From a bacterium (GTDB lineage: Bacteria; Blakebacterota; Blakebacteria; Blakebacterales; Blakebacteraceae): DNA of 7,033 nt. Position 1 is the first letter of the stretch, and the number at the start of each line of letters is the position of its first letter. The notes beneath the pieces are model-generated. The model ran no database searches. It was not told where the DNA came from and saw nothing but the letters and a program-made list of their open reading frames with translations. Of the stretch, positions 1,604 through 7,033 are shown piece by piece. Position numbers and translations under genes: made by a program. Where the stretch lies: NCBI GenBank assembly GCA_025774205.1, contig JALGWK010000095.1, positions 1-7,033 of the forward strand, in the 5' to 3' direction.

Positions 1604-1632
1604 TTGACACCCCCCCGGCAGAGTGGTATTCT
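1604..1632 (+). promoter_or_regulatory. Predicted sigma70-type promoter of the feo operon
   Basis: A perfect -35 box TTGACA (1604-1609) is followed after exactly 17 bp by TATTCT (1627-1632), a 4/6 match to TATAAT. The expected transcription start is about 1638-1640, directly on the iron-box-like operator. This is the only good promoter between the carboxypeptidase stop and the regulator gene. Use by a housekeeping sigma factor of this organism is inferred. Confidence 0.6.
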
Positions 1633-1747: not shown

Positions 1748-2779
1748 GTGTCAGATCCCCTGGTAGCGCTCATACTCGCCACGCTGGCCGGAATCGGTCT
1801 CTTCGTGGTCTTCCGTCCGGGGACGGGATGGTTCTGGCGGTGGCAGTCCACACGGGTGGTCACGGAAAGGGTCAGGCGTGAGGATGCTCTGAAGCATCTC
1901 CACCATCAGGAGTACCAGGGACAGCCGGGCAACCTCCAGTCGATTGCAGGCGCGGTCGGCATCACGACCGGTGAAGCCGCGGAACTGGCAGGGGAACTGA
2001 TCGGGCACGGGTACACCCGGCTGGAGGATGACCGATACAGACTTACGAACAGCGGCCGGAGTTACGCCCTGCAGGTGATCCGGGCCCATCGCCTCTGGGA
2101 ACGGTACCTGGCGGACGAGACCGACGTGGAGGACGCGGAGATCCACCTGAGGGCCGATAAGGCTGAACACCTGCTGACCCCCACCGAAGCCGACGAGCTG
2201 GACGCGCGGCTCGGGTACCCCCGTTTCGATCCTCATGGTGATCCGATCCCGACCGCAGACGGGGAAGTGGAGGAGGGCGAGGGTATGCTGATGACCAGGT
2301 GGCCTCTCGACCAGCCGGGGAGGATCGTCCACCTTGAAGATGAGCCGCCTGAGGTCTACCAGCAGTTGATGGTCGAAGGAGTCCGTCTCGGTGAAGACGT
2401 GCGCATCCTGGAGCGCTCCCCGACCGAGGTCAGGTTCTTCACCGAGGAACGCGAATACGTTGTAGCCTCGATCGTCGCCGCCAATATCACCCTGGCGTCA
2501 GTTCCCGAGAAAGAAGTGTTGGAGGGTCCCTTCTGCCTGCTCGCCGATCTCGATGAGGGTGCCACCGGAGTGGTCAAGGGACTGGCGGAAGCGTGCCGGG
2601 GCCTGACCCGGCGACGCCTCCTCGATCTCGGATTCACGCCGGGGGCCGAAATCGTCGTGGATCTGACCGGTCCCTTCGGCGAACCCCGGGCATTCAGGGT
2701 GCGCGGGACCATGATCGCCCTGCGCCGTGAACAGGCTGAGATGGTGCTGCTCGAATGCGACGCCGGTCACGTGACATGA
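1748..2779 (+). CDS. Membrane-anchored DtxR-family metal regulator with two FeoA/SH3 domains
   Basis: Predicted 343 aa from the GTG at 1748. An in-frame GTG at 1703 would add 15 residues but has no ribosome-binding site, whereas GGAG lies at 1732-1735 before 1748. Order of parts: a transmembrane helix at about residues 5-23 (VALILATLAGIGLFVVF); a winged helix at about 45-105; a DtxR dimerization/metal-binding part at about 106-170 (AHRLWERYL, IHLRADKAEHLLT, then FDPHGDPIPT); a first FeoA/SH3 domain at about 180-250; and a second, textbook FeoA domain at about 262-337 (RRRLLDLGFTPGAEIVV...RGTMIALRREQAEMVLL). Aligned by eye to DtxR/MntR, the candidate metal ligands are Asp46, His114, Glu118, His133, Asp137, Glu140 and His141. 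DtxR proteins repress iron uptake when metal-bound; FeoA domains bind FeoB. The gene overlaps feoB by ATGA, so sensing and transport are probably coupled. DNA binding by a membrane-tethered form is inferred. The alternative is a purely FeoA-like accessory protein that no longer represses. Confidence 0.85.
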   Translation: MSDPLVALILATLAGIGLFVVFRPGTGWFWRWQSTRVVTERVRREDALKHLHHQEYQGQPGNLQSIAGAVGITTGEAAELAGELIGHGYTRLEDDRYRLTNSGRSYALQVIRAHRLWERYLADETDVEDAEIHLRADKAEHLLTPTEADELDARLGYPRFDPHGDPIPTADGEVEEGEGMLMTRWPLDQPGRIVHLEDEPPEVYQQLMVEGVRLGEDVRILERSPTEVRFFTEEREYVVASIVAANITLASVPEKEVLEGPFCLLADLDEGATGVVKGLAEACRGLTRRRLLDLGFTPGAEIVVDLTGPFGEPRAFRVRGTMIALRREQAEMVLLECDAGHVT

Positions 2780-3492
2780 CACTGGATCGAACCGGCATAG
2801 ATCATGTGGTCGCCCTGGCGGGCAATCCGAACACCGGCAAGAGTACGGTCTTCAACGCCCTGACCGGCCTTCGGCAGCATACCGGCAACTGGCCGGGGAA
2901 GACGGTCACGAGAGCCGAGGGGGACTACCTTCATGAGGGCCTGCGCTACCGGCTGATAGACCTTCCCGGGACCTACTCGCTCCTCTCCGCTTCGGTGGAT
3001 GAGGAGATTGCCCGTGATTTCATCCTCTTCGGTCGACCCGACTGCACGATCGTGGTGGTCGACGCCACCTCGCTGGAACGGAACCTGAACCTGGCCCTGC
3101 AAGTGATCGAGATCACCGACCGCGTGGTGGTCTGTCTCAATCTGATGGATGAGGCGGGCCGGAGGGGGATCGCAGTAGACCATGAGGGATTGGCGGCAGA
3201 ACTCGGGGTTCCGGTTGTGCCGACCACGGCCCGGTATGGCAAGGGGCTGGACCATCTGACGGCGGAGGTCTCCCGGATGGTCTCCGGGGAAACCGTCACG
3301 ACTCCCAGGCAGCTGAAGATCACCGGCGATCTCAGCGAGGCGCTCGATGAGCTCGTTCCGATGATCGAGGATCTCCATCACGATCTTCCGAACGCGCGAT
3401 GGGTAGCACTGCGACTCCTGGACGGCGACTACGCCGTTCGACAGGCCCTGCTCGATGGCAGTATCGGTGAGCTGGCGGGAGGGGATCGCTGA
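2776..3492 (+). CDS. feoB: FeoB, separate N-terminal G-protein (GTPase) part
   Basis: 238 aa, cytosolic. It carries the GTP-binding motifs of FeoB: G1 GNPNTGKST (residues 16-24), the switch I signature RQHTGNWPGKTV (33-44), G3 DLPG (62-65), the FeoB-specific DATSLERNLNLALQ (96-109), G4 NLMD (122-125) and G5 TTARYGKG (150-157). A helical extension follows (about 180-230) and corresponds to the start of the helical domain that links the G domain to the membrane in one-piece FeoB. FeoB imports Fe(II), and the G domain gates the channel. The ATG at 2776 is preferred over the one at 2755 because it makes a 4-base ATGA overlap with the regulator stop and places the G1 motif at the usual distance. 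The gene stops before the membrane region, with TGA at 3490-3492. The rest of FeoB follows in another frame, so this is a split FeoB or, less likely, a frameshift. Confidence 0.9.
   Translation: MTLDRTGIDHVVALAGNPNTGKSTVFNALTGLRQHTGNWPGKTVTRAEGDYLHEGLRYRLIDLPGTYSLLSASVDEEIARDFILFGRPDCTIVVVDATSLERNLNLALQVIEITDRVVVCLNLMDEAGRRGIAVDHEGLAAELGVPVVPTTARYGKGLDHLTAEVSRMVSGETVTTPRQLKITGDLSEALDELVPMIEDLHHDLPNARWVALRLLDGDYAVRQALLDGSIGELAGGDR
3477..3484 (+). promoter_or_regulatory. Strong Shine-Dalgarno for the FeoB membrane gene
   Basis: GGGAGGGG lies at the very end of the G-protein gene. The GGAGG core (3478-3482) is 9 nt before the ATG at 3492, and TGATG joins the stop and start. This decides the start of the second FeoB gene and argues that the split is a genuine coupled gene pair and not a random frameshift. 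Confidence 0.7.
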
Positions 3493-4889
3493 TGGCAGGT
3501 CCGGCTGAACCACGCGATGTACTCTCGAAGGCCGACCTGCTGCAGCGACGTCTGGGCGCGGATCTGCGCGACCGCATGGTCGACTCGATCTACACCGACG
3601 CCGGTGACCTGAGCCGCAGGTTCGTGACCGTCAGCCGTGATCGTCGGACCGATTACGATCGAGCGCTCGATCGTATCATCACCAGCCGCATCTTCGGGCT
3701 CCCCCTCATGTTCCTCGGTCTGGTGGCAGTCTTCTGGATAACGGTTGCCGGCGCCAATGTTCCCTCGAGCATGCTCGCCAATGCTCTCTTCTGGGTGGAA
3801 GAGCTGGGAGCGTCGCTTTTCGACGCCATCGGCATGCCGTGGTGGCTTACAGGCTTCATCTGGCACGGCACGTTCAAAGGGCTGGCCTGGGTCATAGCGG
3901 TGATGCTGCCACCGATGGCGATCTTCTTCCCGCTCTTCACGTTCTTCGAGGACCTGGGATACCTGCCGCGGGTGGCGTTCAACATGGACCGCTTCTTCAA
4001 GTGGGCGGGGGCCCATGGCAAGCAGGCTCTCTCCATGAGCATGGGCTTCGGCTGCAATGCCGCCGGGATCATAGCCACCCGGATCATCGATTCCCCCCGG
4101 GAGCGCCTGATCGCCATCCTGACCAACAACTTCGTGCCGTGCAACGGACGCTTCCCAACCCTCATCATGCTGGCGACGATCTTCGTCGGCACGGCAGTCC
4201 CGCCCGCCCTGGCTTCATTCGCCGCTGCCGGCACGGTCGTAATGGTGGTGGTGGTCGGGGTGGTGATGACGCTGCTGGTCTCGGCCTTCCTCTCCCGGAC
4301 GGTTCTGAAGGGAGAGGCTTCGAGTTTCACCCTTGAACTGCCGCCGTACCGGCGACCCAACTTCGGCCGGATCCTCTATACCTCGATGATCGACCGCACC
4401 CTTTTCGTGCTGAAGCGGGCGATCTACATGGCCGCGCCCGCCGGCGCGCTCATCTGGCTGTTGAGCGCGATCCATATCGGGGACCAGAACCTGACGACCA
4501 TCCTCTCGACAGCCTTCGATTCATTCGGTCAGGCCCTCGGTCTCGATGGAGTGATCATCCTGGCCTATATCATCGCCATCCCCGCCAACGAGATCGTGGT
4601 TCCCACGATCCTGATGGCCTACACCGGCGCGACCCAGATGGTCGACATCACAGGTCTCGGTGAACTGCATGGGATCCTGGCCGGCGAACAGGGCTGGACG
4701 CTGCTGACGGCGGTCTCTCTGATGCTCTTCAGCCTGCTTCACAACCCATGTTCCACGACGATAATGACGACCTGGAAGGAGACCGGCAGCCGGAAATGGA
4801 CGACGGTCGGGGCGCTCATGCCCCTGGCAATCGCCTTCGCGGTCTGCTTCCTGGTGGCGAACCTCTGGAGGCTCTTCGCGGGTGTCTGA
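3492..4889 (+). CDS. feoB: FeoB, separate membrane permease part (Fe(II) transport)
   Basis: 465 aa. An N-terminal soluble stretch (about 1-65; DLRDRMVDSIYTDAGDLSRRFV) matches the last part of the FeoB helical domain. It is followed by hydrophobic segments with both Gate-type repeats and the FeoB C-terminal region. Signature positions are FFEDLGYLPRVAF (151-163), GFGCNAAGIIATR (185-197; Cys188), FVPCNGRFPTLI (214-225; Cys217), PANEIVVPTILMAYTG (364-379) and LLHNPCSTTIMT (415-426; Cys420) followed by KETGSRKW. In FeoB these conserved Cys-containing helices line the iron path. With the preceding 238-aa GTPase it totals about 703 aa, the length of a normal one-piece FeoB, so no domain is missing and the two products should assemble into one transporter. 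The ATG overlaps the upstream stop (TGATG) and has a strong ribosome-binding site. The CNGRFP form differs from the CSARLP form of E. coli FeoB, and from memory is typical of some other lineages. Confidence 0.9.
   Translation: MAGPAEPRDVLSKADLLQRRLGADLRDRMVDSIYTDAGDLSRRFVTVSRDRRTDYDRALDRIITSRIFGLPLMFLGLVAVFWITVAGANVPSSMLANALFWVEELGASLFDAIGMPWWLTGFIWHGTFKGLAWVIAVMLPPMAIFFPLFTFFEDLGYLPRVAFNMDRFFKWAGAHGKQALSMSMGFGCNAAGIIATRIIDSPRERLIAILTNNFVPCNGRFPTLIMLATIFVGTAVPPALASFAAAGTVVMVVVVGVVMTLLVSAFLSRTVLKGEASSFTLELPPYRRPNFGRILYTSMIDRTLFVLKRAIYMAAPAGALIWLLSAIHIGDQNLTTILSTAFDSFGQALGLDGVIILAYIIAIPANEIVVPTILMAYTGATQMVDITGLGELHGILAGEQGWTLLTAVSLMLFSLLHNPCSTTIMTTWKETGSRKWTTVGALMPLAIAFAVCFLVANLWRLFAGV
3654..3675. 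repeat. 22-bp perfect palindrome inside the FeoB membrane gene
   Basis: The arm TACGATCGAGC (3654-3664) is followed immediately by its exact reverse complement (3665-3675). It lies about 165 nt into the gene, in the codons for DYDRALDRI, and contains two GATC sites. It could form a stem of about 9 bp with a 4-nt loop in the mRNA, or be a dyad binding site. The repeated Asp-Arg codons explain part of the symmetry. No function is known. Confidence 0.5.
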
Positions 4890-4913: not shown

Positions 4914-6164
4914 CTATCCGAATAGCAGGCTGTCCCCTGAGTTCCGCGATTCGTCCCAGCGCTTGATGAGGTAGTACTTCTCCGCCTCGAACACTCTGAT
5001 GATGTTCTCGAGGTATTCCTCGGTCTCACGGATGCCGTGATTCATCGTCTTGTTCACGAACGAGAGTACGCGTGAGTGGTAGAAGGGGATCAGTGACTCA
5101 AGCAGCTTGTTCCGGTCAATATCCCCCTGCTTGTAAGCGACCGCGAAATTGAAGAGGACCCTGGCCCACAGGTCGCTGTGGTAGTAGAAGGTGTCGACGT
5201 CGCTTTCATGGGCGATCTTCTCGCACTGAACCATCTCGGGCATGGGGAGGACCTCTTCCCAGAGGTCCCGGTACTCTTTGCACCCGTTGCGGAAGCTTTC
5301 GAACAGCTTGTCGGTGCTGACGTGGATTTCGGGCGGTTTCTCGTCGACGCCGAGACCGAAGCCGAAGATGCTGCTCGGACGACTCTCTCCAAGCCCTCTC
5401 CAGAGATATTCGAACTCCATCATCAGATCGAAGAGAGTGGAAACGACCTGGGTGAACATCGTACTCAGGTCCTCGGCCGGATCCTTGGCGCGATGGATCT
5501 TCGGGCTGCCGAGAAAGGCCTGGCAGACATTGAACCCGCGGGCGATGGCAATGGTGGTCATCCAGATGTCGATCCCGAAATTCGCGATCTTGTCGTTCCA
5601 CAGTTTTTCGGAGAGAAAGGCCCGGGCCATCGTGCCGGAGAACCCGAAATCGCCCCCGATCGGCTGCCGTACACGGAGCCCGAAAAGGCTCCTGAGGAGC
5701 GGGTAGGTGATGTTGTTGGTGATGGTACCGTCGTATTTATGACGCACGTAGATCGGAGTGACATAGTCGAACCGGCCCATCAGCGGCTCGCCGAGGTACC
5801 TGATCCAGGAGGGAGTGATGCTCTTGAGATCGGCGTCCACCATGACCACAGCTTTCGCGTTCAACTCCACCGTCGCCCGGAAGAGGTTCCTGATGTTGTT
5901 CCCTTTCCCCTTCACACCTTCCGGGGTGGAGATGTAGACCTTCGGTGTCTTCGTCGGGGTGTTCAGGAACGCTTCCCGGGTGCCGTCCTGGGAGTTGTTA
6001 TCGACATTGATGATGACGGCCTTGAGACCGGGGAAGAACTCACGCAGTCCGTGGTCGGAGACATCGACGGGGAAGGCGATGCTGTCGGCCTCGTTGTAGG
6101 ATGGGATCCCCACGATCATGTCAGCCGACTTCACATTATCCGGGTTGATCACATTGTCATGCAT
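4914..6164 (-). CDS. GT-A glycosyltransferase resembling mannosylglycerate/glucosylglycerate synthase
   Basis: 416 aa with no signal peptide or membrane helix, so probably cytosolic. The start has the GT-A nucleotide-sugar fold: VGIPSYNEAD (residues 18-27), VDNNSQDGT (54-62), KGKGNN (85-90) and the metal-binding DAD (110-112) in VVMVDADLKSITPSW. Further motifs are RQPIGGDFGFS (166-176), NFGIDIWMTTIAIARG (195-210) and KIHRAKDP (222-229). These follow, in the same order, the motifs I recall from Rhodothermus marinus mannosylglycerate synthase (GT78): PGKGDGMN, YDAD, QPLGGE, DWGIDT and a catalytic His. They also resemble bacterial glucosylglycerate synthases. Such enzymes transfer a sugar from GDP-mannose or a glucose nucleotide to glycerate, making an osmolyte. 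The sugar donor cannot be decided from sequence alone, and an unrelated GT2 role is possible. The C-terminal 180 residues are helical with no motif I recognise. The ATG at 6164-6162 has only a weak AAGG upstream; ATG codon 16 is an alternative start. It is a single gene, convergent with feoB and divergent from thiC. Confidence 0.75.
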   Translation of the reverse strand: MHDNVINPDNVKSADMIVGIPSYNEADSIAFPVDVSDHGLREFFPGLKAVIINVDNNSQDGTREAFLNTPTKTPKVYISTPEGVKGKGNNIRNLFRATVELNAKAVVMVDADLKSITPSWIRYLGEPLMGRFDYVTPIYVRHKYDGTITNNITYPLLRSLFGLRVRQPIGGDFGFSGTMARAFLSEKLWNDKIANFGIDIWMTTIAIARGFNVCQAFLGSPKIHRAKDPAEDLSTMFTQVVSTLFDLMMEFEYLWRGLGESRPSSIFGFGLGVDEKPPEIHVSTDKLFESFRNGCKEYRDLWEEVLPMPEMVQCEKIAHESDVDTFYYHSDLWARVLFNFAVAYKQGDIDRNKLLESLIPFYHSRVLSFVNKTMNHGIRETEEYLENIIRVFEAEKYYLIKRWDESRNSGDSLLFG

Positions 6165-6338: not shown

Positions 6339-6351
6339 TCACCTGTCATTG

Positions 6352-6437
6352 TTCGCTAGGGGTGTTCCGCGGGAGACGCGGGGCTGAGAACAGACCCTCG
6401 AACCTGATCCGGGTAATACCGGCGCAGGAAAGCAGAA
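6352..6437 (+). promoter_or_regulatory. TPP riboswitch (THI element) upstream of thiC
   Basis: The conserved core is present: TAGGGGTG (6357-6364), CTGAGA (6383-6388), ACCC (6394-6397), GAACCTGATCCGGGTAATAC (6400-6419) and GCGCAGGAAAGC (6422-6433). Helices can be drawn as follows: P1, GCT 6355-6357 with AGC 6431-6433, possibly extended by TTC with GAA; P2, GGGT 6360-6363 with ACCC; P3, a perfect CCGCG/CGCGG hairpin 6367-6381; P4, CCTG 6403-6406 with CAGG 6425-6428; P5, CCGG 6409-6412 with CCGG 6419-6422. THI elements bind thiamine pyrophosphate and switch off thiamine genes. No terminator stem with a T-run follows. The Shine-Dalgarno directly abuts P1, so control of translation initiation is likely. 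Confidence 0.95.
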
Positions 6438-6441
6438 GAGG
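6436..6441 (+). promoter_or_regulatory. Ribosome-binding site of thiC, abutting riboswitch P1
   Basis: AAGAGG ends 6 nt before the ATG at 6448. It begins inside the possible 3' strand of P1, so ligand-stabilised P1 could mask it directly. It supports 6448 as the native start of thiC, in frame 1 of the window. Confidence 0.6.
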
Positions 6442-6447
6442 TATTCC

Positions 6448-7033
6448 ATGAGCGCTCAGCGCGCTGAAGATAACGAATCATCCCGCTTTGAACACGTCGC
6501 TTCCGGCAACGATCCGTCGAGCACGAACGCAGGTTCCACTCCGGGGAGTTTCGCCCGCCCGGCCGGCCGACTGGCAGGTGACCGATGGATTGCCGGTTCC
6601 GCCTTCAGGATTCGAGGCCGTAACTCAGCTCGAGCACGCGCGGCTCGGGAGGGTGACGCCCGAGATGAGAAGGGTAGCGGAGCGGGAAGCGCACCTCACC
6701 GAGGAGCAGGTACGGGAGGAGATCGCCGCCGGACGCCTGCTCATAACCGCCAACCGGATACATCTCTCGTACAACCTCGAACCGATGGCGGTGCGGACAC
6801 CGCCATGGATCTGTCGACCGGCGGAGATCTGGATGAGTGCCGCGAAGCGATCATCCACCATTCAAGCGTGCCTATCGGCACGGTTCCGATCTATTCGATG
6901 ATCATTGACCGGGACGTCCGGGATCTGACCCATGAGGACATCATTGCGGAGATAGAGAAGCAGGCGAAACAGGGGGTTGATTTCTTCACGATCCATGCCG
7001 GGCTGCTTCGGGAACATCTGCCGTATATCGCCC
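6448..7033 (+). pseudogene. thiC: thiC, phosphomethylpyrimidine synthase, N-terminal part, frame-disrupted (runs off the window)
   Basis: ThiC is the radical-SAM enzyme that turns aminoimidazole ribotide into the thiamine pyrimidine (HMP-P). The TPP riboswitch and ribosome-binding site lead into the ATG at 6448, which opens frame 1. ThiC homology first appears in frame 2, about 6578-6790: [20 protein letters not shown], then [18 protein letters not shown] and LEPMA. It then returns to frame 1 from about 6790: [52 protein letters not shown]. Frame 1 has no stop from 6448 to the end, but its middle (about 6600-6790) is Arg/Gly-rich and unlike ThiC. The stretch normally between LEPMxIG and GADTVMDL, about 36 residues in E. 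coli ThiC and including the NANIG motif, is missing. As written no single frame encodes a working ThiC. It is either a real pseudogene or an assembly/sequencing error. The Fe-S and C-terminal part lies beyond the window. Confidence 0.8.
6785..6806. repeat. Perfect 9-bp inverted repeat at the thiC deletion junction
   Basis: ATGGCGGTG (6785-6793) and CACCGCCAT (6798-6806) are exact reverse complements around CGGA. The left arm begins in the LEPMA codons of frame 2 and the right arm lies in the ADTAM codons of frame 1, so the dyad straddles the place where the conserved segment is missing. Confidence 0.7.

Follow-up and report, generated by a model that had tools for sequence, protein, structure and literature searches.

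Described systems related to the locus

Soluble DtxR proteins with twin FeoA domains (PMC4805248) and fusions of FeoA with FeoB (PMC8980893) are already known. PgMntR (PG1044) of P. gingivalis combines a DtxR domain with two FeoA domains and is encoded together with the FeoB protein PG1043, a Mn transporter. It binds the promoter DNA of its own operon in vitro, and the second FeoA domain is required for this binding (PMC4805248). The Mn-transporting FeoB of P. gingivalis is referred to as 'Meo' in a survey of Feo evolution, which mentions paired FeoA-like domains, not DtxR (PMC8749426). In B. fragilis FeoAB, the FeoA domain is fused to the G domain of FeoB, and FeoA was found experimentally to stabilise the GTP-bound state of that G domain (NFeoB); the survey in the same study excluded DtxR-FeoA fusions from its data (PMC8980893). 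Both the effect of FeoA on FeoB and the shut-off of FeoB at metal sufficiency are open questions, on which the present locus bears.

The DNA analysed here, referred to as the window, is the whole stretch of 7,033 nucleotides from a bacterium of the Blakebacterota. It encodes a membrane-anchored DtxR-FeoA-FeoA protein directly in front of a FeoB that is divided into two genes. Like PgMntR, this protein unites a DtxR domain with two FeoA domains beside FeoB. The predicted ligands of PgMntR (H85, E89, H104, C108, E111, H112, D132, H134, H166, D169, and E170) each stand 29 below the corresponding residue number of the window protein (PMC4805248). By this published ligand numbering, PgMntR appears colinear with the anchored family, including the H-x-x-D-E motif of the first FeoA domain. 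Unlike the window protein, it is 310 aa long, has no described transmembrane helix, and carries Cys at position 137, where the window has Asp and the family mostly Glu. The statement in the original prediction that ordinary DtxR/IdeR proteins possess at most one SH3 domain is thus inaccurate, since the soluble twin-FeoA PgMntR was described in 2016 (PMC4805248).

The soluble DtxR/IdeR/MntR proteins, such as M. tuberculosis 5zr6 and D. radiodurans DR2539, share with the window protein the fold of residues 43–252, the metal ligands, and the DPHGDPIP motif. They differ from it in lacking a transmembrane helix, in having one SH3/FeoA domain, and in their conserved recognition helix and wing. In both B. 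fragilis FeoAB and the window protein a FeoA domain is physically committed to its FeoB system; in the window, however, the fusion partner of FeoA is a metal sensor, and the G domain is a protein of its own. In an open-access literature search, neither the anchored form nor its DNA-face loss or conserved operon was found described, which is weak evidence.

Gene and domain architecture of the anchored protein

The gene occupies positions 1748–2779 of the forward strand, from GTG at 1748 to the TGA ending at 2779, and encodes 343 aa. The start at 1748 was favoured over a longer frame from GTG 1703 because the homologue of a same-genus relative (genome G001), which is 79% identical to the window protein, aligns from an identical N-terminus. 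Pfam analysis of the window protein revealed Fe_dep_repr_C (PF02742) at residues 100–169 (E 2.6e-22) and FeoA (PF04023) at residues 265–336 (E 6.7e-22; 77.8 bits against a cut-off of 23), while the DtxR DNA-binding domain (PF01325) found no match. A PHROGs search gave no match.

The AlphaFold2 model, built on a 75-row alignment of true relatives, was very confident (mean pLDDT 94.5, pTM 0.80). It begins with a hydrophobic helix at residues 4–21 (1757–1810, forward strand, as are all domains below; hydropathy 2.55 over 19 residues), predicted to be transmembrane, followed by a short PGTG turn and a long helix at residues 28–56, which forms the first helix of the winged-helix domain (residues 28–99; 1829–2044). 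The remainder of that domain consists of helices a2 (63–70) and a3 (74–86) and the wing (90–99); its DNA-contact face is unconserved, and the net charge of residues 45–98 is -5. The DtxR metal-binding and dimerisation domain (residues 100–169; 2045–2254) contributes the ligands H114, E118, H133, D137, E140, and H141, which act with D46. In the model it is followed by a first SH3/FeoA fold at approximately 180–251 (2285–2500), bearing the motif H195-x-E-D-E-P200, and by a second at approximately 262–337. The Pfam-delimited second FeoA domain (residues 265–336; 2540–2755) is canonical, with invariant R288, R290, G295, and R326. Residues 43–252, which include the first SH3/FeoA domain, superpose on the Mn-dependent repressor 5zr6 with a Z of 24.2 and an rmsd of 1.4 Å over 206 residues. 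The reading frame, the Pfam matches, and the model thus bear out the architecture that had been proposed from the letters alone, in which a transmembrane helix, a winged helix, a DtxR metal and dimer part, an SH3/FeoA domain, and a complete second FeoA domain are joined in one protein.

Metal-binding site

The residues of the metal site are intact. Among the relatives, H114, E118, H133, E140, and H141 are kept in 100% and D46 in 96%, and position 137 is acidic in 81% (E 66%, D 15%, the window having D). According to the published alignment, D46 and residue 137 correspond to Met10 and Cys102 of Fe-type DtxR and to Asp8 and Glu99 of B. subtilis MntR (PMC4805248). The position of MntR Glu11 is occupied by K49 in the window protein, as it is by Lys in DR2539, a dual sensor of Mn and Fe (PMC3327659). 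With D46, E/D137, and K49, the ligand set therefore resembles that of Mn or dual Mn/Fe sensors more closely than that of Fe-type DtxR. Given this set, PgMntR, and the Mn-transporting FeoB of P. gingivalis (PMC4805248), the sensed metal is no less likely to be Mn(II) than Fe(II).

The H195-x-E-D-E-P motif of the first FeoA domain is missing from the soluble neighbours, and its residues could possibly serve as extra metal ligands. The conservation of DPHGD and I-x-H-x-EDEP in the genome-contig set is partly a selection effect, as these peptides were scan patterns, and HxEDEP was kept in 16 of 17 members of an independent sample.

Split FeoB and operon linkage

The sensor gene is followed on the forward strand by a separate gene for the N-terminal part of FeoB (2776–3492; PF02421, E 6e-59), comprising the G domain and the first half of the cytosolic helical (GDI) domain, and then by a gene for the membrane channel (3492–4889; Gate, PF07670, E 8.9e-28; FeoB_C, PF07664, E 4.9e-16). 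Stop and start codons overlap across the three genes, the ATG of the first FeoB gene overlapping the stop of the sensor gene. By Pfam, the G domain and the Gate-type membrane core of FeoB are all present, in two genes instead of one. The break falls within the cytosolic helical (GDI) domain, and the membrane part matched no solved structure by sequence.

Scanning a genome-contig collection with peptide patterns that included DPHGD and I-x-H-x-EDEP yielded 80 relatives. These were distributed over at least 11 phyla: Chloroflexota, Bacteroidota (including cultured Maribacter, Cyclobacterium, and Tamlana), Ignavibacteriota, Gemmatimonadota, Acidobacteriota, Planctomycetota, Verrucomicrobiota, Calditrichota, Balneolota, Chlorobiota, and Myxococcota. 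For the linkage count 84 proteins were analysed, and at all 80 loci with at least 400 bases of 3' sequence the next gene downstream was FeoB. The suspected association of the homologues with feoB is thus essentially universal. FeoB was split in 53 and unsplit in 23 of the 76 readable loci, so that the split form predominates in operons with the anchored protein. The conserved operon order is dtxR, anchored dtxR-feoA-feoA, feoBN, and feoBC. A soluble dtxR, the anchored protein, and a split feoB are all present at the locus of the cultured Maribacter polysiphoniae (L045).

In a separate sample of 386 genomes, 18 encoded the anchored protein at E 1e-77 or better, other DtxR proteins following only at 1e-55 after a clear gap, and FeoB adjoined the anchored protein in every non-window locus whose contig extends far enough. 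The plasmid collection held no relative at E 1e-30. Besides the first FeoA domain, the second is the sole FeoA-like candidate in these operons, and no stand-alone FeoA was found in the window's genome (86% complete). A general rule that genomes with the system lack any other FeoA was rejected, as about half of 17 such genomes have one elsewhere, often adjoining another DtxR.

Conservation of the membrane helix

The hydrophobic N-terminal helix was present in 78 of the 84 relatives and in 14 of 17 in the independent sample, as called by hydropathy together with the window model; no comparable conserved N-terminal helix occurred in the soluble DtxR neighbours. The membrane anchor is therefore real and conserved. 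The exceptions (e.g., L098, L103, L106, L109, and L126–L128) retained the feoB linkage, and one further helix-lacking relative (L094) is cut by a contig end. Because the few helix-less relatives are still linked to feoB, the anchor is, on these sequences, not indispensable.

A restriction of the helix to systems with split FeoB was considered and rejected, since most of the 23 unsplit-FeoB loci have a transmembrane protein. Some helix-less members beside split FeoB also contradict such a coupling.

Degeneration of the DNA-reading face

A matched control came from 29 operons in which the gene of the anchored protein is immediately preceded, in the same orientation, by a gene for a classical soluble DtxR. 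The entropy of the exposed recognition-helix positions was 2.96 bits in the anchored proteins against 1.24 in the soluble ones, and that of the wing 2.98 against 1.29, whereas the dimer domain was equal (1.30 and 1.31) and the metal ligands were equally conserved (0.22 and 0.28). The first FeoA domain was better conserved in the anchored protein (1.74 bits against 2.35). The difference in the recognition helix was reached in none of 500 within-pair label swaps. The mean net charge of the winged-helix domain was -3.1 in the anchored proteins and +1.8 in the soluble ones, and PF01325 matched 10 of 75 anchored proteins compared to all 30 soluble DtxRs.

These contrasts in entropy, charge, and PF01325 suggest that the winged-helix fold has been retained while its reading face is under no common constraint. 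Of the DNA-binding winged helix that had been predicted, the fold stands in the model and the contact face proved degenerate, an outcome that had been named beforehand as refuting. It counts against a DNA-binding role but is not proof of absent binding; DNA binding may still persist. Arginine-rich recognition helices occur in some Gemmatimonadota and Chloroflexota members, and two small genomes (G092 and G360) contain no other DtxR-type protein.

Promoter, operator, and the soluble DtxR

A sigma-70-like promoter (TTGACA-17-TATTCT; 1604–1632, forward strand; 10 of 12 matches) precedes the operon, and its hexamers align in G001. The region contained two promoter-like sites, compared with 0.0 in shuffles. 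A putative operator, TTAGGCTAACCTAA (1643–1656), with the palindrome TTAGGNNNNCCTAA, follows closely on the -10 hexamer. The layout of promoter and box is repeated in G001, and the same box occurs upstream of related operons in many phyla. Among 80 upstream regions, 13 contain TTAGGNNNNCCTAA exactly, where shuffles predict 0.1. Allowing up to one mismatch raises the count to 25 (1.0 expected) and allowing up to two to 51 (9.9 expected), which leaves 29 regions without the box. It occurred irrespective of a soluble dtxR leading the operon. In operons with the box, the recognition helices of the anchored proteins are unrelated, while the soluble DtxRs share one.

At most one mismatch to the palindrome was found at three sites only in the whole genome: in front of the window operon, at the start of a soluble dtxR gene on contig C106, and at G000:C499:9913-9926 (L179), just before a TetR-like regulator gene. 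In G001 the box likewise overlaps the start of the soluble dtxR. The operator was thus assigned by its context. Because the box overlaps the start of the soluble dtxR both here and in G001, the soluble DtxR is likely to be the repressor of itself and of the window operon. Control of the operon promoter by the anchored protein, which had been offered as one of its roles, is disfavoured, as its DNA-contact face is degenerate and the operator fits the soluble DtxR elsewhere in the genome.

Proposed role and alternative explanations

We consider that the anchored protein is a metal-sensing FeoA subunit of the split FeoB, which provides post-translational feedback and leaves transcription to the soluble DtxR; a probability of about 0.6 is given to this reading. 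The dimeric sensor would be cytosolic, placed at the mouth of the channel, where it would bind incoming Mn(II) or Fe(II). Metal binding would re-order the sensor and the first FeoA domain and so change the hold of the second FeoA domain on the FeoB G domain, a contact for which B. fragilis FeoA-NFeoB offers a precedent (PMC8980893). FeoB would thereby come under post-translational feedback, probably being inhibited at high metal supply, although the direction of control is an inference. Transcription of the operon would be left to the separate soluble DtxR acting at TTAGGNNNNCCTAA.

The strongest counter-evidence to the FeoA-subunit reading is PgMntR. Because this apparently helix-less relative needs its second FeoA domain for DNA binding, the corresponding domain of the window protein may serve the sensor rather than FeoB. 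PgMntR also lends weight to a membrane-bound one-component repressor with a CadC/ToxR-like layout, in which the metal-loaded tethered dimer would bind TTAGGNNNNCCTAA and repress its own operon, as this twin-FeoA relative binds its operon's promoter in vitro (PMC4805248). The intact winged-helix fold in the model and the arginine-rich recognition helices of some Gemmatimonadota and Chloroflexota members are in keeping with such a repressor, as is the lack of another DtxR in G092 and G360, which also counts against the FeoA-subunit reading. Even so, a tethered repressor is judged unlikely: a single shared operator stands alongside transmembrane proteins with completely different recognition helices and also fronts the canonical soluble dtxR gene here and in the sister genome, the recognition helix and wing are unconserved in an acidic domain, and PF01325 was missed in 65 of 75 proteins.

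Somewhat more doubtful is a metal-independent tether, in which the DtxR part would serve only as a dimerising scaffold that, where FeoB is split, recruits the second FeoA domain and the detached G domain to the membrane. Such a tether would be of advantage to a detached G domain, and FeoB is split in 53 of the 76 readable loci; however, the metal ligands belong to the best-conserved positions, 23 loci pair an unsplit FeoB with the same kind of protein, and some helix-less members adjoin a split FeoB. A very improbable reading is that of an ordinary DtxR repressor whose hydrophobic N-terminal extension is of no consequence and goes back to a fusion with an ABC permease. Outside the family, the closest relatives are indeed ABC-3 permease-DtxR fusions, whose last permease helix and P-x-x-G turn align with the N-terminus of the window protein, but retention of the helix in 78 of 84 relatives across phyla is unexpected of a relic, and the DNA face has been lost.

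A wider claim is about evenly balanced, namely that across many phyla a DtxR-family repressor has been converted into a membrane-bound, non-DNA-binding sensor that is the FeoA subunit of FeoB and directly feeds back, at the post-translational level, on the import of Fe(II)/Mn(II), alongside a soluble DtxR often encoded in the same operon. The conserved weld of metal sensor, FeoA, and membrane would make post-import feedback directly testable, and annotating such anchored proteins as transcriptional regulators would lead to a misreading of the genomes concerned.

Relationship to transporter-tethered DtxR proteins

The ABC-3 metal permease-DtxR(-FeoA) fusions (L010, L132, L133, and L009) form a second class of transporter-tethered DtxR. 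As in the window, a DtxR sensor is tethered to a metal transporter, and the approach to their winged-helix domain, with its transmembrane helix, P-x-x-G turn, and connecting helix, resembles the N-terminus of the window protein. They differ in that an entire ABC permease is present (PF00950 matched all three tested) together with at most one FeoA, and no FeoB lies alongside in the stretches read. A FeoA domain was identified by Pfam in L010 and L132, and L133 was placed with the ABC-3 fusions by the tree only. The window protein has one transmembrane helix only and no PF00950 match, and thus no ABC-3 permease domain.

The tree, built on dimer-domain and first-FeoA columns, separated the anchored family, its helix-less members, and three ABC-3 fusions from the soluble DtxRs with branch support of 97/91; the fourth fusion (L009) fell elsewhere on a long branch. 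It is plausible that the anchored family derived from, or shares an origin with, a transporter-tethered DtxR, and a route from transcription factor to transporter subunit would be common to it and the ABC permease-DtxR fusions. A soluble twin-FeoA protein beside FeoB (L143) grouped with the soluble DtxRs, so the twin FeoA may have arisen more than once. At one locus (L011, genome G055) the pieces are separate, as a soluble DtxR, a 104-aa FeoA that is 55% identical to the second FeoA domain of the window, and an unsplit FeoB that is 57% and 51% identical to the two FeoB parts of the window. This arrangement speaks for the second FeoA domain of the anchored protein being equivalent to FeoA.

Other observations in the window and the genome

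A second, more distant FeoB (667 aa frame) was found in the same genome at positions 4182–7073 of L021 (G000:C285:6000-13963). The protein encoded after it, DtxR-like and 236 aa long, contains an unusual CPHGRPIPKGACC stretch, and a TTAGGNNNNCCTAA box is missing from both genes. At the end of the window, thiC (6448–7033) lies behind a TPP riboswitch (6348–6447) and is broken in this contig: ThiC positions 1–47 and 84–170 are in different frames, and positions 48–83 are missing. The remainder of the gene is on contig C1, and thiC is intact in G001. The break is either an assembly error at the contig end or a real deletion. The reverse strand at 4914–6164 encodes a glycosyltransferase related to mannosylglycerate synthase (PF21969, E 2.6e-9), which is 91% identical in the sister genome and has the same neighbourhood there.
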